From Epilithonimonas hungarica (lineage in GTDB: Bacteria > Bacteroidota > Bacteroidia > Flavobacteriales > Weeksellaceae): a stretch of DNA of 64,000 nucleotides. The translations under genes and the position numbers were made by a program. Position 1 is the first letter of the stretch, and each line of letters begins with the position of its first letter. The stretch is from assembly GCF_900102265.1 (NCBI RefSeq), contig NZ_FNBH01000001.1, forward strand, positions 496,001-560,000, given 5' to 3'. Of the stretch, positions 14,663 to 54,194 are shown piece by piece. The notes beneath the pieces were generated by a model. It made no database searches. It saw nothing but the letters and a program-made list of their open reading frames with translations, and was not told where the DNA came from.

Positions 14663-15748
14663 CTAGTCCTCGAATTCTAAGAAGGGGATTTTCAGCTGAA
14701 CGGAGACTTGTTTTTTTTCTTCTGTATTGAGATTGGAAAGTGATAATCCAAGCAGTCTAATAGCTTTATCGAAAGGGCGAAGTTCCCAAAGTTGTTTCGC
14801 CGTATTATAAAATTTCTCTGCATTCTCGAAATACAATTCCTGGGTCTTGCTTCTCGTATAAAGCGAAAAATCTTTGTATTTGATTTTCAAAGTCAGGGTT
14901 TTACCTTGGATCTCTCTTCTGCCGAGACGTTCTTCCAGTTCCAGACTTAGAGATTTCAGTTTTTCATCAATCTGTTCATCCTCATTGATGTCATCCCAAA
15001 ACGTTCTTTCAACAGCCACACTCTTCTGGATTCGGTTTGGTTTTACCTCCCCATTATGGATTCCTCGAACGACATTGTAATAATATCTCCCGGATTTTCC
15101 GAAAAGCTTTTCCAGTTCATCCAGAGATTTGGCTTTCAAATCGGCACCTTTGAAGATGTGAAGTGTGTGCATTCTATTAGCTGTCACTTTTCCTACACCA
15201 TAGAATTTCTCAATTGGAAGATTTTCCAAAAACTCATTGATCTTTGTTGGATGAATGGTTTTCTGCCCATTAGGTTTATTGATGTCGGAAGCTACTTTCG
15301 CCAGAAATTTATTGACAGAAATTCCCGCAGAAGCCGTCAGTCCAGTTTCTTCAAAAATCCGTTTTCTTATTTCTTTGGCAATGTAGTTGGCTGATTCGAT
15401 TCCTTTTTTATTTTCTGTAACATCCAGATAAGCCTCGTCCAGAGAAAGTGGTTCCACCAAATCCGTATAATCATGAAAGATGTTCCTGATTTTGCTAGAG
15501 ATTTCTTTGTATCGCTGGAATCTTGGTCTTACAAAGATAAGATGCGGACATTTTTCTTTTGCCGTTTTACTGGGCATCGCTGACCTTACTCCAAATTTTC
15601 TGGCTTCATAACTTGCCGCTGCAACCACGCCACGATGCCCACCGCCAACAGCAATAGCTTTTCCACGCAGACTCGGGTCATCAAGCTGTTCCACAGACGC
15701 ATAAAATGCGTCCATATCCACGTGAATTATTTTGCGTTGCGATTGCAT
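14663..15748 (-). CDS. dinB: DNA polymerase IV (Y family)
   Basis: A 361-residue translesion polymerase. Metal-binding acids lie in HVDMDAFYASVEQ near residue 10 and in SLDEAYLDVT near 103-110. The helix-hairpin-helix thumb region contains FYGVGKVTANRM, and the little-finger domain includes SVAVERTFWDD. The C-terminus has QLKIPF, a plausible beta-clamp-binding motif. Length is standard. It is downstream of the TlpA-like gene on the same strand, but a strong terminator lies between them, so it should have its own promoter. No LexA box was identified by eye. Confidence 0.95.
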   Translation of the reverse strand: MQSQRKIIHVDMDAFYASVEQLDDPSLRGKAIAVGGGHRGVVAAASYEARKFGVRSAMPSKTAKEKCPHLIFVRPRFQRYKEISSKIRNIFHDYTDLVEPLSLDEAYLDVTENKKGIESANYIAKEIRKRIFEETGLTASAGISVNKFLAKVASDINKPNGQKTIHPTKINEFLENLPIEKFYGVGKVTANRMHTLHIFKGADLKAKSLDELEKLFGKSGRYYYNVVRGIHNGEVKPNRIQKSVAVERTFWDDINEDEQIDEKLKSLSLELEERLGRREIQGKTLTLKIKYKDFSLYTRSKTQELYFENAEKFYNTAKQLWELRPFDKAIRLLGLSLSNLNTEEKKQVSVQLKIPFLEFED

Positions 15749-15762
15749 CGAACAAATTTATG

Positions 15763-15792
15763 CAAAAAAAATCCCGAAAATTTTCGGGATTG
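15763..15792 (-). terminator. Intrinsic terminator after TlpA-like gene
   Basis: Perfect 20-base palindrome 15771-15790 (ATCCCGAAAA and its complement). On the minus strand it is followed by a T-run from 15770 down to 15763, 10 bases after the stop of the gene ending at 15801. Confidence 0.85.
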
Positions 15793-15800
15793 TAATATTG

Positions 15801-16316
15801 TTATTTTGTAAGCTTGTCGATTGTTGATTGTATTTCGGGATCATCCGGAGAAATCGCATAATATTTTGCAATATCCGACTTTTGGTCCACCACAATATAT
15901 CTCGGGATCCAGTTGAGGTCAACATAATTGTTGAAATCATTCTTCCATCCCGATGCAAACCAATAATTCTCTTTGTCCTTCATTTCAAATTTATCAAGAC
16001 TTTTATCAAAACCTTCTTTTGAGCGTTCCAGTGAAAGGAATACAAAGTCGATATTTGGATTTTGTGCTTCTAATTCTTTTGCTTTTGGAAATGCTTTCAG
16101 ACAATCTTTGCACCAACCGGCCCAGAAATCCAGCACTAAAACTTTACCTTTGTGCTGGTCCAGAATATCTTTTATGGAAGTTTCTTTTCCATTTTCGTCC
16201 TGTAATTTTTGTGCTAAAGCTGCTTTGGAAAATTTGATTTTCAGGACTTTTGGAACTTCCTGCGTAAATCCCAATTGAAAAACAAATAATAAGATGTAAA
16301 CTAGTATCCTCTTCAT
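15801..16316 (-). CDS. TlpA-like thioredoxin-fold protein, exported
   Basis: A 171-residue protein with a signal peptide (about residues 1-19, ending QLGFTQ) and a thioredoxin-like domain. The redox motif is WCKDC in FWAGWCKDCLKAFPKA near residue 68; a PRYIVVD segment carries the cis-proline equivalent (IPRY). Such proteins act as periplasmic thiol-disulfide oxidoreductases or in cytochrome c maturation. Cys-Lys-Asp-Cys is unusual compared with the common Cys-x-Pro-Cys, hinting at a specialised redox potential. It is transcribed alone and divergent from the Crp/Fnr gene across 163 bases. Confidence 0.85.
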   Translation of the reverse strand: MKRILVYILLFVFQLGFTQEVPKVLKIKFSKAALAQKLQDENGKETSIKDILDQHKGKVLVLDFWAGWCKDCLKAFPKAKELEAQNPNIDFVFLSLERSKEGFDKSLDKFEMKDKENYWFASGWKNDFNNYVDLNWIPRYIVVDQKSDIAKYYAISPDDPEIQSTIDKLTK

Positions 16317-16479
16317 TTTTTTTAATTTGTATGAAACGAAGTTAAGGAATAATACCCAATTTGTATATTTTGGGAAATGTTTATTGAGAGAAAATGTTTA
16401 ATCCTTAAAATATTGTGAAAATCTTTTTGAATTTCATTGGAATTGTTAAAATATATTTAATTTTGAATAAAAGTTATTA

Positions 16480-17115
16480 ATGGGAAACTCGGATTTCATC
16501 AAAAGGAAATTTGAAAAATTTGATGAAGGTTTTCATCAGGAACTCAAAGAGCACGGGATTTTTACCTCGGTCAATGCCAAACAGGAATTGATTGCCGAAG
16601 GTGATAAGGTGAAATTTATTCCCATACTTATAAAAGGTTCTGTAAAAGTGTATAATTTGAATGACGGAAAAGAGCTGGTCTATTATTACATATCGCCAGG
16701 CGAGAGTTGTATAATGACGTTCTCCACAATTTTTACGGATAAAGTGAGTAGAATATATGCCATCTCAGAAGAAAAATCTGAAATTCTATTGCTTCCCGTT
16801 CCTCAATTCCTGAATTGGCTTCAAACCTATCCTCAATTGAATCAAATGTTTTTTCTGGAATATGATTCGAGGTATAAATTTATGATGGAAACAATCAACA
16901 AGATTGTTTTCCAGAAGTTGGACCACCGGGTTTTAGAATATCTCCACGAAAGAATCAGAAGAAGTGGAGCAGATGTTGTAAAGGTCTCACATAAGAAGAT
17001 CGCTGATGAATTGGGAACTGCAAGAGAAGTGGTCAGCCGCATTCTGAAAAAATTTGAAAAAGAGGGATTGATTACACAAAGCCCATTAGGAATAGAAATA
17101 ATTGAAAAGCGGTGA
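16480..17115 (+). CDS. Crp/Fnr family transcriptional regulator
   Basis: A 211-residue regulator with an N-terminal cyclic-nucleotide-binding fold (residues about 25-130) and a C-terminal winged helix (HKKIADELGTAREVVSRILKKFEKEGLI). The cluster of Cys residues that would hold Fnr's 4Fe-4S centre is absent; only one Cys is visible (in PGESCIM). It is therefore more Crp- or NnrR-like. It heads a six-gene same-strand run. A terminator hairpin overlaps its stop codon, so the following genes are probably transcribed from their own promoter, perhaps under its control. Confidence 0.9.
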   Translation: MGNSDFIKRKFEKFDEGFHQELKEHGIFTSVNAKQELIAEGDKVKFIPILIKGSVKVYNLNDGKELVYYYISPGESCIMTFSTIFTDKVSRIYAISEEKSEILLLPVPQFLNWLQTYPQLNQMFFLEYDSRYKFMMETINKIVFQKLDHRVLEYLHERIRRSGADVVKVSHKKIADELGTAREVVSRILKKFEKEGLITQSPLGIEIIEKR

Positions 17116-17134
17116 CTTTAGTCACCGTTTTTTT
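17110..17134 (+). terminator. Intrinsic terminator overlapping the Crp/Fnr stop codon
   Basis: CGGTGAC at 17110-17116 pairs with GTCACCG at 17121-17127 across loop TTTA, followed by seven Ts. The stop codon lies within the left arm. Confidence 0.85.
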
Positions 17135-17143
17135 ATGTACATA

Positions 17144-17154
17144 CATCATAATTT
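17144..17154 (+). promoter_or_regulatory. Candidate -7 box for the DUF5777-YceI run
   Basis: The segment contains TAATTTTG, which fits TAnnTTTG, about 20 bases ahead of the preferred start of the DUF5777 gene and just after the Crp/Fnr terminator. No clear -33 element was matched. Confidence 0.4.
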
Positions 17155-17171
17155 TGAACAAAAAGGTTTAT

Positions 17172-18011
17172 ATGTCAAAACTTCTATCATTTATCTCTTT
17201 ATTCATTCTGATTTTATCTTATGCGCAGGACGATCTGTTGAAAGAAATCGATACAGTAAAAGCGGAAGAGCCATATTCTCCCAGCTTCAAAGCATTGCAG
17301 GTTGTTACGGCACAATCCACAAAATTACCTTCAAAAAAAGAATTTTATCTGGATATTTCTCACAGGTTCGGAGATGTAAGTGATGGATTCAAAAATTTCT
17401 TCGGGCTAGATAACGCAACTACAAAACTTGGAGTGGTCTATGGTCTTACGGATTGGATGTCATTGAACTTTGCCAGACATACCTATCAAAAAACTTACGA
17501 GTTTGGTGCAAAGTACAGACTTTTCAAACAAGAAAAAGAATCACCATTTGATATTGTCGGGTACAATGTTTTGGACATCAATTCAGAACTTAAAAAAGAT
17601 GATTTTCCAAAGCTTGAATTCGCCGATAGGTTTGCTTATTTATCTCAATTATTGATTTCAAGAAGATTCACAGAAAATCTGACTTTGCAGTTAACGCCTA
17701 GTTATATCCATAGAAATCTGATAGAACCGACAATTGACAGTAAAGATCTCTTCTCTACAGGTCTGGGAGGACGATACAAAATCTCGAAAAGAGTTTCTAT
17801 CAACGCAGAATATTTCTACAACTTCGAGAATAAAAATTTCTACAAAAATCCTTTATCTGTAGGAATGGATATCGATACAGGCGGACACGTTTTCCAGCTG
17901 GTCTTCAGTAATTCTCAAGCCAATACGGAAACCGGTTACATAAGTAATGCGACAGGTGATTGGGCGAAAGGTCATTTCTTCTTTGGGTTTAATCTTTATA
18001 GAGTTTTTTAA
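17172..18011 (+). CDS. DUF5777 family beta-barrel-like protein
   Basis: A 279-residue protein from ATG 17172, chosen because a signal peptide (MSKLLSFISLF..., ending SYAQ) begins there. The longer frame would start inside the previous terminator. The mature part has alternating strands with aromatic ends (FYLDISHRFGDVSDGF, then LGVVYGLTDWMSLNF) and ends GFNLYRVF with a C-terminal Phe, as in outer-membrane beta-barrels. DUF5777 proteins are described only by sequence. It is followed after one base by a haem-motif lipoprotein gene and then YceI, which suggests an envelope electron-transfer or redox-lipid function for the run. Confidence 0.8.
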   Translation: MSKLLSFISLFILILSYAQDDLLKEIDTVKAEEPYSPSFKALQVVTAQSTKLPSKKEFYLDISHRFGDVSDGFKNFFGLDNATTKLGVVYGLTDWMSLNFARHTYQKTYEFGAKYRLFKQEKESPFDIVGYNVLDINSELKKDDFPKLEFADRFAYLSQLLISRRFTENLTLQLTPSYIHRNLIEPTIDSKDLFSTGLGGRYKISKRVSINAEYFYNFENKNFYKNPLSVGMDIDTGGHVFQLVFSNSQANTETGYISNATGDWAKGHFFFGFNLYRVF

Positions 18012-18021
18012 AATGCTGACT

Positions 18022-18381
18022 ATGAAAAGTACAATGAAATTATTCGTTCCGGTTTTGGGATTTTTTATGTTAATGAATTGCGACACAAAAACTTATGAAG
18101 ATATCTCTGATAATACTCCAATTACAGAAACCGTTACTTACAACAAAAATGTGAAAACGATCATTGATAACAATTGTGTGGTTTGCCATTCGCCAACAGG
18201 TTCTAATCCTTATTTCCCGTTGACAGATTATACGGCCGTAAAAAATTCAATAGATAATATTCTGGACAGAATCCAAAGAGCGAACGGGGATCCTTTGAAA
18301 ATGCCTCAAGGAGGAACATTGTCCCAGGATAATATCAATATGATCATCAAATGGAAAGCAGATGGTTTGCTTGAAAACTAA
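18022..18381 (+). CDS. Small cytochrome c-like lipoprotein
   Basis: About 119 residues from ATG 18022 (18013 is also possible). The start is a lipoprotein signal with Cys in FFMLMNC. One haem-attachment motif, CVVCH, sits near residue 54, and a likely axial Met lies in KMPQGG about 40 residues later. This is the layout of a short monohaem c-type cytochrome anchored in the envelope. It sits one to ten bases after the DUF5777 stop and 16 bases before yceI, so translation is probably coupled. It may hand electrons to or from a partner encoded in this run. Confidence 0.82.
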   Translation: MKSTMKLFVPVLGFFMLMNCDTKTYEDISDNTPITETVTYNKNVKTIIDNNCVVCHSPTGSNPYFPLTDYTAVKNSIDNILDRIQRANGDPLKMPQGGTLSQDNINMIIKWKADGLLEN

Positions 18382-18397
18382 TTTAAATAAAGAAAAA

Positions 18398-18940
18398 ATG
18401 AAGGTTTTAGTTTTTTTAACGGGTTTGATTTTAACATCGAATTTTGCTTTTGCGCAAAAATATTCTACCAAAACAGGTAAGATCACTTTTGAAGCTTCGG
18501 TGCCGTTGTTTGAAGATGTGTATGCTGAGAATAATAATTCGACAGCAATTCTGAACGCTGATACTGGTGATATTGCTTCGCTAGCGATGGTCAATGGTTT
18601 CAGTTTTAAATCCAGCCTGATGCAGGAACATTTTAATGAGAATTATGCAGAATCTGCAAAATACCCAAAGACAAGTTTCAAAGGTAAAATTTTGAACTTT
18701 GATAAAAACGATTTGTCAATGAAGCCAAAAGCCTATACCATTTCCGGAACATTGAATTTTCATGGTGTTGATAACACGGTTCAATCAACTGCTAGTATCT
18801 ATCTGAAAGATGATAAAGTTGTTGTTCAAGGGAAATTTGTAGCAAAAACTGCAGATTATAAAGTTAAAATTCCAAAAATGGTAGCTACAAAAGTTGCCCA
18901 GAATGTAAATGTCAACTATAACTTTTTACTTCAGAAATAA
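18398..18940 (+). CDS. YceI family protein
   Basis: A 180-residue protein starting at ATG 18398 with a signal peptide (MKVLVFLTGLIL..., ending FAFAQ). YceI folds are lipocalin-like barrels that bind isoprenoid-type lipids. The family's SFKGKI strand and the GTLNFHGVDNTVQ segment are visible. The stop overlaps the next start by one base (TAATG), so it is translationally coupled to the ankyrin protein. Company with a cytochrome lipoprotein and a DOMON protein would suit a role in quinone or redox-carrier handling, which is inference. Confidence 0.88.
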   Translation: MKVLVFLTGLILTSNFAFAQKYSTKTGKITFEASVPLFEDVYAENNNSTAILNADTGDIASLAMVNGFSFKSSLMQEHFNENYAESAKYPKTSFKGKILNFDKNDLSMKPKAYTISGTLNFHGVDNTVQSTASIYLKDDKVVVQGKFVAKTADYKVKIPKMVATKVAQNVNVNYNFLLQK

Positions 18941-26459: not shown

Positions 26460-26547
26460 ATTACAACCTCGTCTTTTTAGATGAGGTTTTTTATTTGTGC
26501 AATCTCTGCAAATTTTCCCAGAGCTTTTCCCAGAGCAAAAATCTACA

Positions 26548-26620
26548 GAGCCGGGCTATCCGCTATATCTTTTGCTCCGCTGCGCTCCGCAAAAGGATGC
26601 CGCTACTATCCCTATTGCAG
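26548..26620. repeat. GC-rich palindromic intergenic element, copy D
   Basis: The element reads CCGGGCTATCCGC, then CTTTTGC, a GC-rich loop, GCAAAAG, then GATGCCGCT and CTATCCCT. The central stem is CTTTTGC with GCAAAAG, with the further inner complement CCGC/GCGG-like bases. G+C is much higher than in the surroundings. It is structurally similar to the block at 41423-41544. Confidence 0.6.
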
Positions 26621-45113: not shown

Positions 45114-45360
45114 TTAGTAGTTGACGGTAGTTAGTTGGTCTTTGTCGATGGTTGGTTGTTCACTGTCAGTGGTTGGTTGTTCACTGTCATTACTTAGTTG
45201 GTCATTGTCAGTGGTTCGCTGGTCTATGTCATCGCTTAGTTGGGTGTTGTCATCAGTTAGTTGGTTATTGTTACTGCATAGTTGACCTTTGCTCCTGGTT
45301 GGCTGGTCATTGTCGTCGCTTAGTTGCTCATTGTTACTGCTTAGTTGGGGGTTGTCATTG
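45114..45360. repeat. 21-bp tandem repeat tract
   Basis: About eleven degenerate units of 21 bases of the type GGTCATTGTCATCGCTTAGT(T), with substitutions concentrated at a few positions. Because the unit is a multiple of three, long frames stay open on both strands (45114-45422 minus and 45152-45427 plus). On the minus strand the unit reads as a seven-residue repeat of the type xDQLSDD/EQPTTDS. Confidence 0.8.
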
Positions 45361-45887: not shown

Positions 45888-46055
45888 ATGAAAAAACTAA
45901 ATTTAAAAGACATCAAAAATGGAATGTCAAGAAATGAAATGAGAAAAGTCAAGGGAGGGTGCGGTTCTTGTGATATTACGCATGTCGAATCTTGTTGGAA
46001 TGGTAATGTCTATAGGAGGGCTTCATTGATTAATGGCGTTTTTAAGTGTTGCTAG
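45888..46055 (+). CDS. Double-glycine leader precursor peptide (bacteriocin/RiPP-like)
   Basis: A 55-residue gene too short for normal gene callers. The leader (residues 1-24, MKKLNLKDIKNG..., ending KVKGG) has the Bacteroidota GG-leader pattern LxxIxxxxSRxEMxxVxGG, with Gly23-Gly24 as the processing site. The 31-residue core holds five Cys (25, 28, 36, 54, 55), a WNGN segment and a C-terminal Cys-Cys. An A-rich stretch precedes the ATG. The next gene starts two bases after its stop, and two thiol-disulfide proteins, a glycosyltransferase-like protein and a C39 exporter follow on the same strand. Likely a secreted peptide with disulfides or other Cys modification; its activity (antibacterial, signal or other) is unknown. 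Confidence 0.85.
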   Translation: MKKLNLKDIKNGMSRNEMRKVKGGCGSCDITHVESCWNGNVYRRASLINGVFKCC

Positions 46056-46057
46056 TA

Positions 46058-47116
46058 ATGAATTATAAGGCTTATTTACACATCATTTTTATAATGATGT
46101 GTAGCTTTTTATCCAATCAATTGTTTTCCCAAGAAGTATTAGTAAAAATCATAACGGATTCTATTATTAATAATAAAAAAATTGGTGGAATAGTTAATGA
46201 TGAATACTATAAAAATTCTTCTAAACACATAAAAGAAAATGACAAGGGATTGTTTTCTTTTCAAGTAAGGGATAGCAAATTTCCTCTACCGTATGCACTT
46301 TCTTTTCCTAAAGGAGAAGGATTTGCAATGACATTGCCTTTTCTGGTAGATAAGAACAGTGCTAGTTTTAAGCTGAGATATCTAGATAGCGGTTTTTTGT
46401 TATTAGAACCACAAACAATACAGAATGAAAATGCAAAAGATGAAATTAAATTTTATGAGTTCATTAATAGGAGATTAAAGAGTTTGGAATCCTATTATTA
46501 TAAAAATAAAGAATTGGATCAGTTACTACTAGAATATTCTAAAAAGAATAAAAACAGTTATATATTATTCTGGACTTTGGTTCGTCAATTTGAATTGAAA
46601 AGTTATAACGAGGTGTATGATGACATTTTCAATAATTTATCAAATAATATAAAAAAATCCATATATGGTAGGGTTTTTTATCATAACCTAACAGAATCAA
46701 AAAAAATCATTATAGGGAGAGAATTTCCTGAATTGGTCTTAAGTGGGCAAAAGACGATTAACCCATCCTTATATGGAAAGCAATTTACACTAATTGATTT
46801 TTGGTTTTCCCACTGCGCCCCTTGTATAGAAGATTTGCCCAAATATAAGAAACTATATGCTAAATATAAGGATAAAGGATTCGAGATTGTTGGTATTTCA
46901 ACAGATGTAACACAAGCTAAGGACAATTGGGGAAAAGTAATAAGGGATAAACAATTAGATTGGCAAAATCTTCTTGATGAAAATGGTGTTGAATCAACCA
47001 AATACGATATTAATAAATTTCCGACGACTTTCCTTTTGGATTCTGATGGTATAATTATTAAAAAAGATCTCTCTCCAGAAGAATTAGAAATATTTTTAGA
47101 AGGAAATCTAAAATAA
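46058..47116 (+). CDS. TlpA-like thioredoxin-fold protein of the peptide cluster
   Basis: 352 residues from ATG 46058; a GTG at 46046 would overlap the peptide gene. It has a signal peptide (about 1-25, ending QLFSQ), an N-terminal and middle region without recognised domain, and a C-terminal thioredoxin fold with CAPC in FSHCAPCIEDLPKY near residue 255 and KFPTTFLL near 325. It would act in the periplasm on thiols. Starting two bases after the precursor stop, it is a good candidate for handling the five-cysteine core. The related gene at 34511 has the same build. Confidence 0.88.
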   Translation: MNYKAYLHIIFIMMCSFLSNQLFSQEVLVKIITDSIINNKKIGGIVNDEYYKNSSKHIKENDKGLFSFQVRDSKFPLPYALSFPKGEGFAMTLPFLVDKNSASFKLRYLDSGFLLLEPQTIQNENAKDEIKFYEFINRRLKSLESYYYKNKELDQLLLEYSKKNKNSYILFWTLVRQFELKSYNEVYDDIFNNLSNNIKKSIYGRVFYHNLTESKKIIIGREFPELVLSGQKTINPSLYGKQFTLIDFWFSHCAPCIEDLPKYKKLYAKYKDKGFEIVGISTDVTQAKDNWGKVIRDKQLDWQNLLDENGVESTKYDINKFPTTFLLDSDGIIIKKDLSPEELEIFLEGNLK

Positions 47117-47144
47117 CGAGCAACCCAAAACTTCTAAAATCATA

Positions 47145-48719
47145 ATGACTACTAACCAAGACTTAGAAGCAATATTTTCTTATGCTCGATCTCAAAATAT
47201 AATACTTGACAAAGCAGAGTTTCAGTTTCAGGTAGAAACTCATCCGGATTATCCAAGCTTGTTGGCTTTTACAGACGCTTTTTCATTTTTTAAAATCCCA
47301 AATATTGCAACTAAAATATATGCAGACCAAATAGAAAATCTACCTAATTCTTTTGTTGCATTGCTGGGAGATATTGGAGATAATAGGAAAGAAGATTATT
47401 TGTCACACATCACTGAGAAAAATGGGAAATATCACTTTACTCATGAAAAGCAAACAAAAAAGCTAAACATTGCAGAACTAAAACAATATTGGAAAGACAT
47501 TGTTTTTTTAGCCGAAAAATCGGAAAATTTCGCAGATACAAAACCAAAATCTACTTCTGTAACTAATATGATGGTTTGCATCTTTGCATTGCTGGTTCTG
47601 GGGATTGTCTATTTATTTTCTGCTTCTATATTTGCGGTTTTGTTCGGGACAATTTATATGGCTGGGATTTTTCTTTCGATAGAAGCATTGAAAAGTGAAT
47701 TGGGAATAGAATCCACAGTTTCTAAAAATATGTGTAACATAGTCGCCAATGCAGATTGTGCACAGGTCATTAATTCTGATAAAAATACATGGCTGAAAAG
47801 CTTTAAAATCAGTGATGTTAGCATTTGGTTTTTCAGCTCTGAATTGTTGTCTTTACTATTGTTTTCAGTTTATGGCGTAACAGAAAATTATTTTGCCCTT
47901 TTAATTTTTTCCTTGGTTTTAGCAATTCCAATGACTTTGTACTCTATATATTTTCAATATAAAGTGGAGAAAAAATGGTGTCCAATTTGTTTGAGTATTA
48001 TTGCTTTGATTTATGTACAATTGTTATTATTAGTTATTAATCATCCTGCCTATTGGTCTTTTAATTTAAAAAATGTAACACTTTTTGTTTTTGGCTTTGC
48101 AGTCGTTGCATTTTCAATTTATATGATAAAACCATTTCTATTGAACATCAAAAACCTAAAAGAAAATAATATTAAAAATCTTCGGTTCAAAAGAAACTAC
48201 ACTATTTTCAAAAATAATCTGGAAAAAGAAGAACAACAGTTTTTTATAAGTGAAAATCTAGTTTTAGGCAATCTTAATTCTAAATTGAAAATCTCAATTA
48301 TTACCAGCCCACTATGTGGCTATTGCAAAAAAGCACATGAAATTCTACATGAGATTTTGAAAAATAATTACGAAAATTTATGTATTTCTATTAGGTTTAA
48401 TTATAGAGAATTCTTTGATAATAATACTCAAGATTTATTCTGTCGTTTGCTAGAAATTCACAAAGAAAAAGGAGATTTCGCTTTTTGTGACGCTTTACAA
48501 AATTGGTTTGAAACTAAAAATTTGAAAGAATGGCTTTTGAAATTCGGAGAGCCTGTAAATAGTGAACAATCAAAAAATGGATTACTATTGATAGCCGCAG
48601 AAAATGAATCTAAAAACTTGAATTTCACCCCTAATATATTCATTAATCAATATAAATTTCCCGATTTATATGATAATCAAGATTTAGAATATTTCATTAC
48701 AGATCTAATTGAAGATTAA
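47145..48719 (+). CDS. VKOR-thioredoxin fusion with C39-like N-terminal domain
   Basis: A 524-residue membrane protein in three parts. Residues about 1-120 resemble a C39 peptidase fold (ETHPDYPSLLAFTDAF near 32) but contain no cysteine, so it cannot cleave; it may bind the GG leader. Residues about 140-335 are a vitamin K epoxide reductase domain with several helices, a loop Cys pair (MCNIVANADC) and the quinone-side CPIC in WCPICLSI. Residues about 350-524 are a DsbA-like thioredoxin with CGYC. VKOR-Trx fusions make disulfides, passing electrons to quinones. It is 28 bases after the TlpA gene and five before the next. Confidence 0.88.
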   Translation: MTTNQDLEAIFSYARSQNIILDKAEFQFQVETHPDYPSLLAFTDAFSFFKIPNIATKIYADQIENLPNSFVALLGDIGDNRKEDYLSHITEKNGKYHFTHEKQTKKLNIAELKQYWKDIVFLAEKSENFADTKPKSTSVTNMMVCIFALLVLGIVYLFSASIFAVLFGTIYMAGIFLSIEALKSELGIESTVSKNMCNIVANADCAQVINSDKNTWLKSFKISDVSIWFFSSELLSLLLFSVYGVTENYFALLIFSLVLAIPMTLYSIYFQYKVEKKWCPICLSIIALIYVQLLLLVINHPAYWSFNLKNVTLFVFGFAVVAFSIYMIKPFLLNIKNLKENNIKNLRFKRNYTIFKNNLEKEEQQFFISENLVLGNLNSKLKISIITSPLCGYCKKAHEILHEILKNNYENLCISIRFNYREFFDNNTQDLFCRLLEIHKEKGDFAFCDALQNWFETKNLKEWLLKFGEPVNSEQSKNGLLLIAAENESKNLNFTPNIFINQYKFPDLYDNQDLEYFITDLIED

Positions 48720-48724
48720 GAGTT

Positions 48725-50077
48725 ATGAAGATAATACAATCCTTTTGGTCTGGCGGTTTCCAAGACATAAGAGATAATAGAGGGTGGTTATCCTATGAAT
48801 ATCATTGGTTAGGATGGATACTCAGTTGCAACCAATTACGAAAATTCTATGAAGAAGTTGAATTATATACTGATAAGTTCGGTTGCGAAATTTTGATAAA
48901 TAAATTAAATCTTCCTTACACAAAAGTTCATGTAGTTTTAGACGAAATGAACAAATATCCAAAAGATTTATGGGCAATCGCTAAGATACAAACTTATGCA
49001 CTCCAAAATAGCCCTTTTCTTCATGTAGATGGTGACGTATTTATTTGGAATAAGTTTCCTCAAGAATTAATGTCAAGCAGCTTAATAGCTCAAAATTTAG
49101 AAAATACAACAGATTATTATCGTGAAATGTGGAATGACATTGCTCCTCATTTAAAATTTATACCTCAGGATATCTATAACTATCACAATGGTCTTTCAAA
49201 TTTAGGTTGTAATATGGGAATTATTGGGGGAAATGATATAGAATTCTTTCATGAATACACCAAAAAATCTTTTGATTTTGTTGATAAGAATAGAGAAACG
49301 TGGGATGAGTTTAATTTATTTAATTTCAATATTTTTTTTGAACAAGAGTTGTTTTACGAGATGTCTGTACTTCAAAAAAAAACAATTAGTTATTTGTTTG
49401 ATGAAGTCTGGGGAGATAATTCATATTTGGGATTGGGCAATTTTCAGGATGTTCCACACAAAAGATTTTATCTTCATTTACTGGGAAACTTCAAAAGACG
49501 CTTAAGCATTTGTAGATTTCTTGAAGGGTCTGTTTTAAAAGAATATCCAGAATTTTATTTGAATCTTAAAAATTTAATTCCCGAAAAATTCGAGCATTTT
49601 GATAAAGAAATTTTGGATTATAAATTTTCTAAAAATGATAATCAAAGGCTTGTAAATAAATTTATGGAGAACATACTAGACAATAAATCAGTTATTCGCA
49701 ATGAAGGTTTGTTAGGAAGGAATATTCACTTACCAACTATTTATACGAAATTTGATAAATACACACAAGACAATATTGATTTTTCATTGCTATTACTAAA
49801 CTGTTTTGAAATTGAACACAACAAAAATCAAAATCAAGAAAATCAAAACTTAAAAGTATATGAGTTCGATGGGACTTCTATCAATTATGATTTTGACGAA
49901 ATTGATATATTGATGGTGACAGAATTAAAAGATAAAATACTAAAAAGTCAATTTTTAATAAATATGCGCCAATATCTTGAAGAAGATATTACACAAGAAG
50001 ATGTGGATGAGTTCAATAAACTTTTAATGAATAGATTGAGATATTTTTTGGAGTGTAAAATTTTAGTGCTTTTGTAA
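48725..50077 (+). CDS. DUF6734-like, glycosyltransferase-fold candidate
   Basis: A 450-residue soluble protein. The N-terminal 330 residues match what I remember of DUF6734: IIQSFWSGGFQD at the start, YHWLGWILSCNQLRKFY, LPYTKVHVVLDE, then FLHVDGDVFIW with a DGD motif near residue 101 like the metal/sugar-nucleotide site of GT-A enzymes. The last 120 residues are Asn/Glu/Asp-rich and cysteine-poor. Function is not established. In this position, between disulfide enzymes and the exporter, transfer of a sugar to the precursor peptide is a reasonable hypothesis. No signal peptide, consistent with cytoplasmic modification before export. Confidence 0.75.
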   Translation: MKIIQSFWSGGFQDIRDNRGWLSYEYHWLGWILSCNQLRKFYEEVELYTDKFGCEILINKLNLPYTKVHVVLDEMNKYPKDLWAIAKIQTYALQNSPFLHVDGDVFIWNKFPQELMSSSLIAQNLENTTDYYREMWNDIAPHLKFIPQDIYNYHNGLSNLGCNMGIIGGNDIEFFHEYTKKSFDFVDKNRETWDEFNLFNFNIFFEQELFYEMSVLQKKTISYLFDEVWGDNSYLGLGNFQDVPHKRFYLHLLGNFKRRLSICRFLEGSVLKEYPEFYLNLKNLIPEKFEHFDKEILDYKFSKNDNQRLVNKFMENILDNKSVIRNEGLLGRNIHLPTIYTKFDKYTQDNIDFSLLLLNCFEIEHNKNQNQENQNLKVYEFDGTSINYDFDEIDILMVTELKDKILKSQFLINMRQYLEEDITQEDVDEFNKLLMNRLRYFLECKILVLL

Positions 50078-50078
50078 A

Positions 50079-52295
50079 TTGAAGTCTTTCCCTTTCTACC
50101 CTCAACCCGACACCAAAGACTGCGGTCCCACCTGCCTCCGTATCATCGCCAAATATTACGAAAAAACCATCCCTATACAACAGATAAGAAATCTTTCCGA
50201 GACCACAAGAGAAGGAAGTAGTTTATTAGGATTAAGCGATGCCGCAGAAAAATTAGGATTCAGAAGTTTGGGTGTTCAAATAGATTTCAATACGCTTGCT
50301 GAGGAAGTGCCGCTTCCTTGTATTGTCCATTGGAACAAGCAACATTTTGTGGTCGTTTATAATATTGAGACCCTTCGACAGGCTCAGGGTGACAGTCGTT
50401 ATAAGATTTATGTGTCGGATCCAAGTTATGGTTTAATAACTTACTCCAAAGAAGAATTCATCAAAAGCTGGATAGGAGAGAATTCTAATGAAAACACAGA
50501 GGAAGGAATTGCTCTTCTTCTGGAAACCACTCCCTCATTTTTCAAAAATGAATTTGATGAACAAGAGAGTAAAGCGAGCTTCTCCTTCCTTTCAAAATAT
50601 GTATTGAAATATCGCTCTTTAGTTATCCAGCTTGCAATCGGGCTTTTGGCAGGGAGTTTACTGTCTCTCATTCTCCCGTTTCTTACGCAAAGTATTGTAG
50701 ATGTAGGAATCCAAAACCAGGATCTTAATTTTATCTACTTGGTTCTGCTCGCCCAAGTAATGTTGTTTTTAGGAAAAATGGGAATAGAGATCATTAGAAG
50801 TTGGATTCTACTTCATCTTTCCGCAAGAATCAACATTTCCATTATTTCCGACTTTTTTATCAAATTGATGAAACTCCCTATCAGTTTTTTTGATACAAGA
50901 ATGACGGGAGACATCATGCAGAGGATTAATGACCATCACAGGATTGAGCAGTTGCTGACCACTTCTTCCTTAAGTACACTGTTTTCACTAGTTAATCTGA
51001 TCATCTATAGCATCATACTCTTGTTTTACGATTACAGATTGTTTTTGGTGTTTTTCGTGGGAGCTTTTCTATACATTATTTGGATTACTTTTTTTCTTAA
51101 AAAACGAAAAGAGCTGGATTACAAAAGATTCTCTCAGGTTTCGCAGGAGCAAAGCAAAGTGATGGAACTTATCAATGGAATGCAGGAGATCAAAATGCAC
51201 AATGCGGAAAAGAAAAAAAGGTGGGATTGGGAGTTTTTACAGGTCAAATTATTTAAAATTCAGATCAAATCTTTGTCATTGGAACAGTGGCAATCGGTTG
51301 GCGGGAATTTTATCAACCAGATGAAGGATATTCTGGTAAGTTTTCTTGCAGCTAAATTAGTTCTAAGCGGGAATCTTACTTTAGGAATGATGCTTTCTGT
51401 TCAATATATTATTGGTCAGCTGAACAGTCCATTATTACAATTAGTAGAGTTTATAAGACAAACCCAAGATGCTAAGATTTCACTCGAGAGATTGGGAGAA
51501 ATTCACGACAAGGAAGATGAAGAGAGTGCGGATGAACAATACATAACAGAAATTCCTCAGAAAAATTTGGAAATCCAAAATGTTTCTTTCAGGTATATTG
51601 GTTCTGATTCTTTTGTTTTTGAGAACCTGTATTTAACAATTCCCTACCAAAAGACTACCGCCATTGTCGGAGCCAGCGGAAGCGGAAAGACAACTTTGCT
51701 GAAGCTATTAATGAAATTCTATGAACCCAATGTTGGTGATATTACATTAGGGAATGCCAACCTTAAAAATATCTCTCCAAGGATCTGGCGGGATCATTGT
51801 GGTGTCGTAATGCAAGATGGCTATGTTTTTAATGATACAATTGCACAGAATATTGCAGTGGGAGAAGACTACATTGATAAAAATAAATTAAGAAAAGCGG
51901 TAGAAATTGCCAATATCAAAGATTTTGTAGAGAGTTTACCATTAAGCTATAATACCAAGATTGGAAATGAAGGCGTTGGAATTTCAGGCGGACAGAGACA
52001 AAGATTGTTCATAGCAAGGGCTGTGTACAAATCTCCAGAATATATCTTTTTTGACGAAGCAACTTCTGCTCTCGATGCTAATAATGAAAAGGTAATTATG
52101 GAAAATCTGGAACAATTCTTCAAAGGAAAAACGGCCGTTGTTATAGCACACAGGTTATCGACGGTAAAACATGCTGACAAAATTATTGTTTTAGACAAAG
52201 GAAAAGTGGTAGAAGAAGGGAATCATTCAGAATTGGTTGCAAAAAAAGGAGAATATTACAGACTTGTTAAAAATCAATTGGAACTTGGAAACTAA
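50079..52295 (+). CDS. C39 peptidase-containing ABC exporter (PCAT)
   Basis: A 738-residue exporter that cleaves GG leaders and moves the core across the inner membrane. It begins at a TTG one base after the previous stop (KSFPFYPQPDTKDCGPTC is the standard family start). The peptidase domain has Cys15, His89 and Asp114. A membrane domain spans about 170-450, and the ATPase has Walker A GASGSGKTT, signature ISGGQRQR and Walker B IFFDEATSALD. Residues 96-106 (IETLRQAQGDS) are encoded by a dispersed repeat inserted between catalytic His and Asp. The exporter feeds the HlyD-type protein encoded next. Confidence 0.93.
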   Translation: MKSFPFYPQPDTKDCGPTCLRIIAKYYEKTIPIQQIRNLSETTREGSSLLGLSDAAEKLGFRSLGVQIDFNTLAEEVPLPCIVHWNKQHFVVVYNIETLRQAQGDSRYKIYVSDPSYGLITYSKEEFIKSWIGENSNENTEEGIALLLETTPSFFKNEFDEQESKASFSFLSKYVLKYRSLVIQLAIGLLAGSLLSLILPFLTQSIVDVGIQNQDLNFIYLVLLAQVMLFLGKMGIEIIRSWILLHLSARINISIISDFFIKLMKLPISFFDTRMTGDIMQRINDHHRIEQLLTTSSLSTLFSLVNLIIYSIILLFYDYRLFLVFFVGAFLYIIWITFFLKKRKELDYKRFSQVSQEQSKVMELINGMQEIKMHNAEKKKRWDWEFLQVKLFKIQIKSLSLEQWQSVGGNFINQMKDILVSFLAAKLVLSGNLTLGMMLSVQYIIGQLNSPLLQLVEFIRQTQDAKISLERLGEIHDKEDEESADEQYITEIPQKNLEIQNVSFRYIGSDSFVFENLYLTIPYQKTTAIVGASGSGKTTLLKLLMKFYEPNVGDITLGNANLKNISPRIWRDHCGVVMQDGYVFNDTIAQNIAVGEDYIDKNKLRKAVEIANIKDFVESLPLSYNTKIGNEGVGISGGQRQRLFIARAVYKSPEYIFFDEATSALDANNEKVIMENLEQFFKGKTAVVIAHRLSTVKHADKIIVLDKGKVVEEGNHSELVAKKGEYYRLVKNQLELGN
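50366..50396 (+). repeat. Short dispersed-type repeat inside the exporter gene
   Basis: Contains CCCTTCGACAGGCTCAGGGT, a known style of flavobacterial intergenic palindromic repeat (CCCT...AGGG ends). It is 31 bases or so, keeps the frame, and adds about ten residues to the C39 domain between the HFVVVY and VSDPSYG motifs, where related proteins have a short loop. Confidence 0.6.
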
Positions 52296-53589
52296 AAAAG
52301 ACATATTAGATAACTTGGAAATCCGCAGTGAAAGTGTGCAGGATATTTTGTCACAACCACCGAACTGGATGATCCGCTGGGGAAATACTTTAATATTAAC
52401 TATTCTCGGAATGATTTTGCTGATGAGCTGGTTCATCAAATATCCCGAATTTGTTCCTGCCCCAATCATTGTAACCTCACAAAACCCACCTGAAAAGCTG
52501 GAAGCCAGGATCAATTCTAAAATTGAAAAAATATTGATTAAGAATCAGCAGGAAGTCAAAAAGAATGACATTCTAATGATTTTACAATCTACAGCCAATT
52601 ATCAAGATGTTCTAAGGCTCAAAAAATTAGTAGATTCTATTTCGCCCAATCAGATTTTTTCTTTTCCGATCAATGAAACTTCAGGATTCAAATTAGGCGA
52701 ATTACAAAGTGATTACAACGCTTTCGCGAAGGCCTTTCAGGATGAGAAACTATTCGCAAAACTACAACCGTATGCTCCGGAAAATCTTGCAGCAAACCAG
52801 GGTTTATCGGAATACAGCAGTAGGATTACAACTTTAAAACAACAGCTAAATCTTGAAAATGCAAAATTCGACTTGAGTAAGAAGAATTTTTCTCGTTCAC
52901 AATCTTTATTCGATCAGGGCGTCATCTCGAAAATGGAACTGGAAAATGAGAAAATAAAATATCTGCAGGCAGAGCAGAATCTCAAAACTATTAATATTTC
53001 TCTTTCTCAAATGCAGGAAGGGATTTCCACTTTTAATAAAACAAAAAGTGGAGCATCCATTAACGCGCAGAAAGACAAAAGTAATTACGCTTCACAAACT
53101 CTGCAAATGTTTGAGCAATTAAGAAAATCTCTAAAACAATGGGAACAGAATTATTTGGTTATTTCCTCAACAAACGGGATTGTAAGCTTTCAGCAATTCT
53201 TTGGAGAGAATCAATTCGTGAAGGCCGGAGATGCTATTTTAACAATATTACCAACCGATAAAGTAGCTGTTGTCGGCAGAATGCAGGTTCCCTCAACTAA
53301 CTCCGGGAAAATCATTCCGGGAGAAAAAGTGCTGATAAAATTGGACAATTACCGTTTCCAGGAATACGGACTCGTAGAAGGTAAAGTACAGAATATTTCT
53401 CTGGCTCCGGATAATAATGGAAATTATTATGTGGATGTAATTCTTCCAAAAGGCTTGAAGACATCTTACAACAAACTATTGCCCTTTGATAAAGAACTCA
53501 AAGGAAATGCTGAAATCGTTACGCAGGATCTTAGATTAATCGAAAGGTTTTTTTATCAGATCAGGAAATTGTTGAGATTTCAGAATTAA
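52285..53589 (+). CDS. HlyD family membrane fusion protein
   Basis: About 434 residues. No ATG is available at the front; a TTG at 52285 overlaps the exporter stop by 11 bases and gives a plausible start (residues ETKKDILDNLEIRSE follow). An upstream TTG at 52237 is also in frame. One transmembrane helix (near WGNTLILTILGMILLMSW), a biotinyl-lipoyl-like region split by a long coiled coil (about 110-300), and a C-terminal beta domain ending QIRKLLRFQN form the usual adaptor. It would link the exporter to a TolC-type outer membrane channel, which is not encoded here. Confidence 0.88.
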   Translation: METKKDILDNLEIRSESVQDILSQPPNWMIRWGNTLILTILGMILLMSWFIKYPEFVPAPIIVTSQNPPEKLEARINSKIEKILIKNQQEVKKNDILMILQSTANYQDVLRLKKLVDSISPNQIFSFPINETSGFKLGELQSDYNAFAKAFQDEKLFAKLQPYAPENLAANQGLSEYSSRITTLKQQLNLENAKFDLSKKNFSRSQSLFDQGVISKMELENEKIKYLQAEQNLKTINISLSQMQEGISTFNKTKSGASINAQKDKSNYASQTLQMFEQLRKSLKQWEQNYLVISSTNGIVSFQQFFGENQFVKAGDAILTILPTDKVAVVGRMQVPSTNSGKIIPGEKVLIKLDNYRFQEYGLVEGKVQNISLAPDNNGNYYVDVILPKGLKTSYNKLLPFDKELKGNAEIVTQDLRLIERFFYQIRKLLRFQN

Positions 53590-53699: not shown

Positions 53700-54077
53700 A
53701 TGAATTTTGATGATAAATTTACCAAGCAATTTGAAGAGAAATTGGAGAAAAATCTTAAGTTGATAAGAAGTATGCCTCCTGAAGTGCTTTTGACAGTTAA
53801 GGAAAATCTGCTTAATATCGACTCTGCTATCGAACAAATAAAAAGCAGTCCTAATAAATCAGATGAAGATTTAAAAATGCTGAAAGACCTAGAGAACGAT
53901 CTCCCGGCTTTAAAGCAACAGATAGAGGATATGCAATTAATTTTGATGGAAAGTCTTTACAGAAATTCTTTAGTTTATTTCGAAAATGTAAAAAGGCTTG
54001 CTAAAGAAGGGAATAAAGAAGCGGAGAAAATTTATAATGATTTGAGGATTCATATTGAAAAATTTGATGTGAATTAA
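53700..54077 (+). CDS. Small helical hypothetical protein after the peptide cluster
   Basis: A 125-residue soluble protein, highly charged and almost entirely helical; stretches such as LLNIDSAIEQIKSSPNKSDE and LPALKQQIEDMQLI suggest a coiled coil. No Cys, signal or membrane helix. It starts 111 bases after the HlyD gene in the same direction, and the AT-rich gap may hold its own promoter. Bacteriocin immunity proteins are often small helical proteins at the end of such clusters, but nothing in the sequence proves that role, and it could belong with ruvA instead. Confidence 0.6.
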   Translation: MNFDDKFTKQFEEKLEKNLKLIRSMPPEVLLTVKENLLNIDSAIEQIKSSPNKSDEDLKMLKDLENDLPALKQQIEDMQLILMESLYRNSLVYFENVKRLAKEGNKEAEKIYNDLRIHIEKFDVN

Positions 54078-54156: not shown

Positions 54157-54194
54157 AAAAGCCATTTTAATATGTTAAAATGGCTTTTGTTTTT
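54157..54194 (+). terminator. Intrinsic terminator before ruvA
   Basis: Perfect 14-base stem (AAAAGCCATTTTAA with its complement, loop TATG), followed by GTTTTT. It ends the peptide-cluster side of this strand. Confidence 0.85.

Follow-up and report, generated by a model that had tools for sequence, protein, structure and literature searches.

Gene organization of the cassette

The 64-kb stretch of the Epilithonimonas hungarica genome analysed here (contig NZ_FNBH01000001.1; hereafter the window) contains at 45888-53589 a row of six plus-strand genes encoding a precursor peptide, a TlpA-like thioredoxin, a VKOR-thioredoxin fusion (VKOR-Trx), a long DUF6734 protein, a C39 peptidase-ABC exporter and an HlyD-family adaptor (Table 1). 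A sequence-only reading of this DNA had described a 55-codon gene for a peptide with a GG leader and a five-cysteine core, followed on the same strand by these five genes with gaps of -11 to 28 bases. The open reading frame (ORF) of the peptide and the gaps obtained with the chosen starts (2, 28, 5, 1 and -11) confirm this description, and Pfam matches agree with the five identities. The 55-residue peptide consists of a 24-residue leader, MKKLNLKDIKNGMSRNEMRKVKGG, with GG at its end, and a 31-residue core whose five cysteines lie at core positions 1, 4, 12, 30 and 31. C39 exporters cut after GG leaders, as is known for this family, and the exporter of the row is the sole PF03412 match in the genome.

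For the TlpA gene the ATG at 46058 was taken as the start, the longest ORF beginning at a GTG (46046), and the N-terminus of its product looks, by eye, like a signal peptide. The TTG at 52285 was taken as the start of the HlyD gene from homology with its counterpart in E. bovis (locus L007); the longest ORF is 52237-53589.

Table 1. Features of the cassette (positions in the window; L numbers are our handles for loci in other genomes)
Feature	Position	Strand	Parts or remarks	Matches and other evidence
Precursor peptide	45888..46055	+	leader codons 45888-45959 (GG end), core 45960-46052	ORF; homologous leaders in L007/L051, L053, L056, L120, L121, L174
TlpA-like thioredoxin	46058..47116	+		Redoxin E 1.8e-15, AhpC-TSA E 1.9e-15
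VKOR-thioredoxin fusion	47145..48719	+		VKOR E 1.6e-10, Thioredoxin_4 E 1.4e-6
DUF6734, long form	48725..50077	+	GT8-like domain ~1-286, C-terminal extension ~287-450	PF20508 E 3.1e-110
C39 peptidase-ABC exporter	50079..52295	+	TTG start	Peptidase_C39 E 1.4e-31, ABC_membrane, ABC_tran
HlyD-family adaptor	52285..53589	+		HlyD_3 E 1.1e-12; homologue in L007
Possible attenuator	46076..46104	+	directly 3' of the peptide gene and within the start of tlpA	12-pair hairpin and T run

Related clusters and distribution of DUF6734

The six genes occur in the same order in four other genomes, namely G006/E. bovis (L051, L007), G930 (L120), G973 (L121) and G1213 (L174), the last three loci coming from a single genus in a different family of this order. 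Over its 24 residues, the leader of the window shares 18 identities with that of L051, 16 with those of L053 and L174, 15 with those of L120 and L121, and 13 and 12 with the pair at L056, while L120 and L121 are identical at all 24 leader positions and dissimilar in their cores. Similar kits with related leaders and different peptides occur in other Bacteroidota. The gene order and the conserved leader with a variable core, both of which the sequence-only reading had proposed to look for, were therefore found in relatives. Because the homologous peptide gene adjoins the same genes there, the cassette is more than a chance arrangement, and these clusters, leaders and cores support the earlier proposal that it would make and export a modified peptide. 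Regarding the modifiers, which that reading left unnamed, the data point to DUF6734 as a glycosyltransferase (GT) and to VKOR-Trx and TlpA for disulfides.

The export pair seems to be constant and the maturation genes exchangeable, because near-identical exporters accompany different modification genes: same-genus exporters that are 86-90% identical sit with VKOR at L111 and with LanB and LanC at L113, and both L111 and L114, also of this genus, are VKOR-C39 clusters without DUF6734 whose exporters show that same identity. The GC content fits this suggestion, being 27-31% across 46-50 kb and 35-38% in the exporter gene (left flank, 35-45%; right flank, 34-41%). In E. bovis, LanB, LanC and a second peptide adjoin the cassette (L007), and the genes to its right (15218-18628) resemble, by eye, a mobile element. 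Porph_ging/GLPGLI-type proteins recur beside GG peptide clusters (Pfam matches at L007 3905-5488, L056 6830-7642 and L111 7383-8195; more by eye).

PF20508, the DUF6734 family, was searched at E 0.001 in five overlapping genome samples, with matches in 21/320 genomes of the same family, 16/395 across the phylum, 21/395 in the order, 38/299 of one genus and 13/251 of another family. Forty-five of the loci fetched, excluding the window, have the long form (at least 400 residues). Within 7 kb these hold a GG Cys-rich peptide in 34 cases, a full C39 exporter in 28, HlyD in 23, VKOR in 20, DUF6625 in 11, Lan genes in 9 and TlpA in 8, and 41 of them have one or more of the features peptide, Lan, VKOR and C39. 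At L072, L074, L075, L175, L176 and L178 the long DUF6734 gene accompanies a GG peptide and the other kit genes were not found. Among the short forms (~300 residues; L080, a broken copy, left out), a GG Cys-rich peptide was present at 1/23 loci. Moreover, DUF6734 has VKOR and a GG peptide as neighbours on two named plasmids, Emticicia pEMTOL02 and one of Hymenobacter sp. BRD128; a plasmid search with the peptide itself gave nothing of note.

The DUF6625-like genes near long DUF6734 genes (L053, L056, L057, L079, L164, L166, L169-L172 and L189; Pfam checked in L053, L056, L079 and L164) have an Asp-rich motif which, by eye, suggests a possible second GT. DUF6734-like proteins were also seen on 32 viral contigs of IMG/VR (L252-L283), 15 of them with at least 380 residues, and could be candidate phage glycosyltransferases. 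Protein set A3 includes 23 of these 32 loci (out: L259, L263, L269-L271, L273, L275, L276 and L282). In the literature searched, a limited collection, DUF6734 and DUF6625 are not mentioned.

DUF6734 as a putative glycosyltransferase

The best fold match of the AlphaFold model of DUF6734, which was built with viral homologues, is glycogenin (12% identity), and Foldseek and a comparison with PDB structures assign it the GT-A fold. The residues expected of such an enzyme are nearly invariant: D102 and D104 (DxD) are present in 73/73 bacterial members, and in the HxxGxxK motif H is kept in 73/73, G in 69/73 and K in 72/73. K87, N163, E206 and H251 are kept in the viral members too.

Several results weigh against this assignment. 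The comparison with PDB structures re-examined matches that Foldseek itself had listed, and a fold shared with glycogenin is no proof of activity. No GT match was obtained in Pfam and PDB profile searches with 37 bacterial DUF6734 proteins, among which neither Glyco_transf_8 nor Glycos_transf_2 matched at E 10, nor when the viral set was searched against PDB; Nucleotid_trans was matched by only 1/26 viral members (E 0.033). The hhalign comparisons with Gly_transf_sug were weak (probabilities of 1.2 and 1.9%), though top of the eight made. G254 of HxxGxxK is found in only 11/26 viral members, the C-terminal extension beyond residue 290 is modelled in blocks at a predicted local distance difference test (pLDDT) score of 55 or less, and 4/45 long-form loci, one at a contig end, show neither peptide nor Lan, VKOR or C39.

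Concerning the extension, leader similarity tracks it once the GT domain is allowed for (partial r 0.33, 0/2000 permutations, 28 loci, the locus pairs not being independent). This suits a leader-binding role, and it is suggestive of an extension that binds the leader. As for a possible recognition element of the PqqD-like winged-helix type in the extension, Pfam PqqD had no match among the 37 members, the region in question is the low-pLDDT part of the model, and a single PqqD match in 30 genomes was too little for a profile.

Bias at the first core residue

Core residue 1 (+1) of the peptides at long-form loci shows a bias towards Ser, Tyr and Cys. From 57 rows (56 at these loci plus the window), five were left out (L078 13722, three of L079 and one of L190), and the remaining 52 have Ser in 22 cases, Tyr in 18, Cys in 4 and another residue in 8. 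With the five rows restored, S, Y or C stands at +1 in 44/57, versus 7/51 controls (p 1.5e-11, a value that assumes an independence which relatedness breaks); the controls are same-pattern peptides at loci without DUF6734, a few with a misplaced leader end. In the dereplicated set (n=36) S, C or Y occupies position 1 in 30 peptides, position 2 in 4 and positions 3-10 in 6 to 16. Beside VKOR the proportion is 34/35 with hand-set labels, or 34/36 counting the second, lanthipeptide-type peptide of L051. Within one leader type S and C alternate, and S and Y do so within another (L184-L188). A cleavage preference does not readily explain the bias because near-identical exporters handle the L111 and L114 controls. 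From these patterns, the peptide is the likely acceptor of DUF6734.

The bias has its exceptions: the eight other residues (N, A, D, I, T, L) and the five dropped rows (T, L, L, L, V). It also derives partly from shared descent of leaders. In two plasmid records inspected later, the pattern picked out three candidates, whose +1 residues are S, A and I; 1/2 fits without the I candidate, left out for having no leader look. A rule of an even number of cysteines beyond residue 1 was dropped, with 43/52 peptides even and 9/52 odd and the controls likewise even in total cysteines (24/25). TIGR04149, considered as a second control, had no matches in 51 genomes, nor in any control genome.

The VKOR-thioredoxin oxidase

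The N-terminus of the VKOR proteins of relatives (20 rows, without the window) aligned with exporter C39 domains in hhalign (probability 97.2 with E 4.7e-11, against 5.4 or less in nine other comparisons). The VKOR-Trx of the window is 51% identical to the L051 copy, and by homology with these relatives its own N-terminal part (about residues 27-123, within 47145-47513) is assigned as a degenerate C39 domain. Taken by itself, this stretch is not matched by Pfam C39 and, by eye, contains no cysteine. Of 22 VKOR-type ORFs, only one, an internal fragment, has the catalytic Cys motif in its first 60 residues, and the His motif searched for is present in none. Such a degenerate domain may dock the leader.

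Proposed maturation pathway and alternative explanations

Taken together, the cassette probably makes an exported, disulfide-bonded and glycosylated peptide of glycocin-like character with the help of an unrelated glycosyltransferase. The first steps would take place in the cytosol, where the C-terminal extension of the long DUF6734 protein would bind the conserved leader and the glycogenin-like domain would move a sugar from a nucleotide-sugar onto the core. The most likely target would be the side chain of the first core residue, which is Cys in this peptide and, in most relatives, Ser or Tyr. The C39 exporter is predicted, from the chemistry of its family, to cleave behind GG and to send the core out with HlyD, after which Cys 4, 12, 30 and 31 would be paired by TlpA and VKOR-Trx, the latter perhaps brought in through its degenerate C39 domain. 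Sublancin has five cysteines and one S-linked sugar; if Cys1 bears the sugar here, four cysteines are likewise left for two disulfides. The product would likely serve as a bacteriocin-like peptide against close relatives. A broader proposal, which we make only tentatively, is a widespread and so far unrecognised class of ribosomally synthesized and post-translationally modified peptides (RiPPs) in Bacteroidota, in which a glycogenin-like enzyme fused to a leader-binding domain would glycosylate residue 1 of the mature peptide (Ser-O, Cys-S or Tyr-O) and a VKOR with a degenerate C39 domain for leader docking would then set the disulfides.

The peptide could also be a class II, bacteroidetocin-like bacteriocin with disulfides only, made by VKOR-Trx/TlpA and C39, with DUF6734 adding sugar to a surface glycan, an immunity target or something else. 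In favour of this, the L111 and L114 clusters of the same genus have VKOR and C39 genes and lack DUF6734, and at bacteroidetocin loci a four-Cys GG peptide is found together with a thiol oxidoreductase and an ABC exporter of the C39 type (available part of PMC6671954). This is nevertheless unlikely, given that long DUF6734 genes lie beside GG peptides at 34/45 loci, at some with no other kit genes found, and that core residue 1 beside DUF6734 differs from that of peptides handled by near-identical exporters. A DUF6734 protein that is catalytically silent and acts as a leader-binding chaperone would agree with the correlation of the extension with leader type and with the lack of a known activity, but a dead enzyme would not need the metal- and donor-type residues that are (nearly) invariant in bacterial members, four of which are also kept in viral ones, and we consider it highly improbable.

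If the first steps of the glycosylation pathway hold, DUF6734 might still modify an internal Ser, Thr or Cys, the +1 bias being inherited with leader types. Known glycocin sites are internal (Ser20 and Cys44 in the thermoglycocin account of PMC12457901, available in part), and leader type and +1 residue are partly co-inherited. The alternation of S with C, or with Y, inside single leader types and the lower share of S, C and Y at positions 2-10 than at position 1 argue for residue 1, and an internal site appears rather unlikely. As for the role, C39-exported GG peptides include signals, and the ORF list and Pfam gave no recognisable immunity gene within the cassette, so a signal or pheromone with the same chemistry is an alternative to a bacteriocin; it seems rather improbable, as strongly varied cores under a fixed leader suit antagonism better than a conserved receptor.

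Other features of the window

The hairpin in the start of tlpA may keep expression of the downstream genes below that of the peptide or may be chance, the terminator scan having found 5 against 3.2 expected. After the HlyD gene, a 125-codon gene (53700-54077) without a family match precedes a terminator-like hairpin (54157-54188) and might be a further member of the operon. Just upstream of the cassette, at 45130-45348, there is an array of about 10 copies of a 21-base repeat (66% matches), which falls inside an ORF of 102 codons on the minus strand that encodes Gln/Asp-rich repeats. A Flavo-1 RNA (26545-26620, minus strand) and two tRNAs (35837 and 62757) were also found in the window.

Comparison with known systems

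Bacteroidetocins (class IIf) resemble the cassette in their Bacteroidota hosts, GG leader, Cys-rich core, thiol oxidoreductase and C39-type exporter, and differ from it in their 15-residue leader, 42-residue four-Cys core and protein with five transmembrane segments (PMC6671954). The available part of that text does not contain the word "glycosyltransferase". Membership was rejected on the 31-residue, five-Cys core and on the Pfam matches, which give no five-transmembrane companion among the six genes.

The peptide also falls below the Pfam and NCBIfam cut-offs. The NF047798 leader_Chryseo family is likewise from Weeksellaceae, and its short leaders, with R-x-x-[LM]-x-x-x-x-GG at the end, are of a type that occurs beside VKOR and C39 genes at L111 and L114, whereas the peptide of the window has a longer leader type, Cys at +1 and 15.7 of the 23.5 bits required. 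With 17.9 of 25 bits it was not assigned to the radical SAM-modified RiPPs of TIGR04149 either. A class I lanthipeptide was discarded as LanB and LanC, both present beside the E. bovis relative (L007), are absent from the six genes.

Bacteroidales RiPP clusters with adjoining GT genes have already been reported, of the GlyS type with a radical SAM enzyme and LanC and in BGC3 and BGC9 (PMC10352776); in the part of that text available, the words thioredoxin, VKOR, disulfide, glycocin and DUF are absent. DUF6734 has the DxD and HxxGxxK motifs of glycogenin and the GT8 family as well as its closest fold, yet it differs from them in its low identity, the absence of Pfam GT8 or PDB sequence matches, the additional C-terminal extension and a RiPP-like neighbourhood.

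To our knowledge, characterised glycocins are few and come from Gram-positive bacteria. SunS is a GT2 enzyme, and a peptide glycosyltransferase of this type was rejected here on the Glycos_transf_2 result given above. The clusters of sublancin (sun), glycocin F (gcc) and thermoglycocin (thg) share with the cassette a C39-cut leader, a Cys-rich core, one GT, a C39 ABC transporter and two thioredoxin-like proteins (available part of PMC12457901), the row in the window having a GG leader with a Peptidase_C39 exporter and, as the thioredoxin-like pair, TlpA and VKOR-Trx. Thermoglycocin has seven cysteines, one glycosylated and six in disulfides (same source). The cassette differs in its GT, a DUF6734 protein whose model resembles glycogenin and which is extended at the C-terminus, in the degenerate C39 domain of VKOR-Trx and in the Gram-negative HlyD adaptor, the comparison being one of gene content. 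We do not class it as a glycocin, given its different GT and a product known from the genes alone. Should it prove to be the Gram-negative equivalent, its GT belonging to an unrelated family, it would provide a function for DUF6734, and perhaps for DUF6625, together with dozens of clusters whose conserved leaders and varied cores could be used for engineering.

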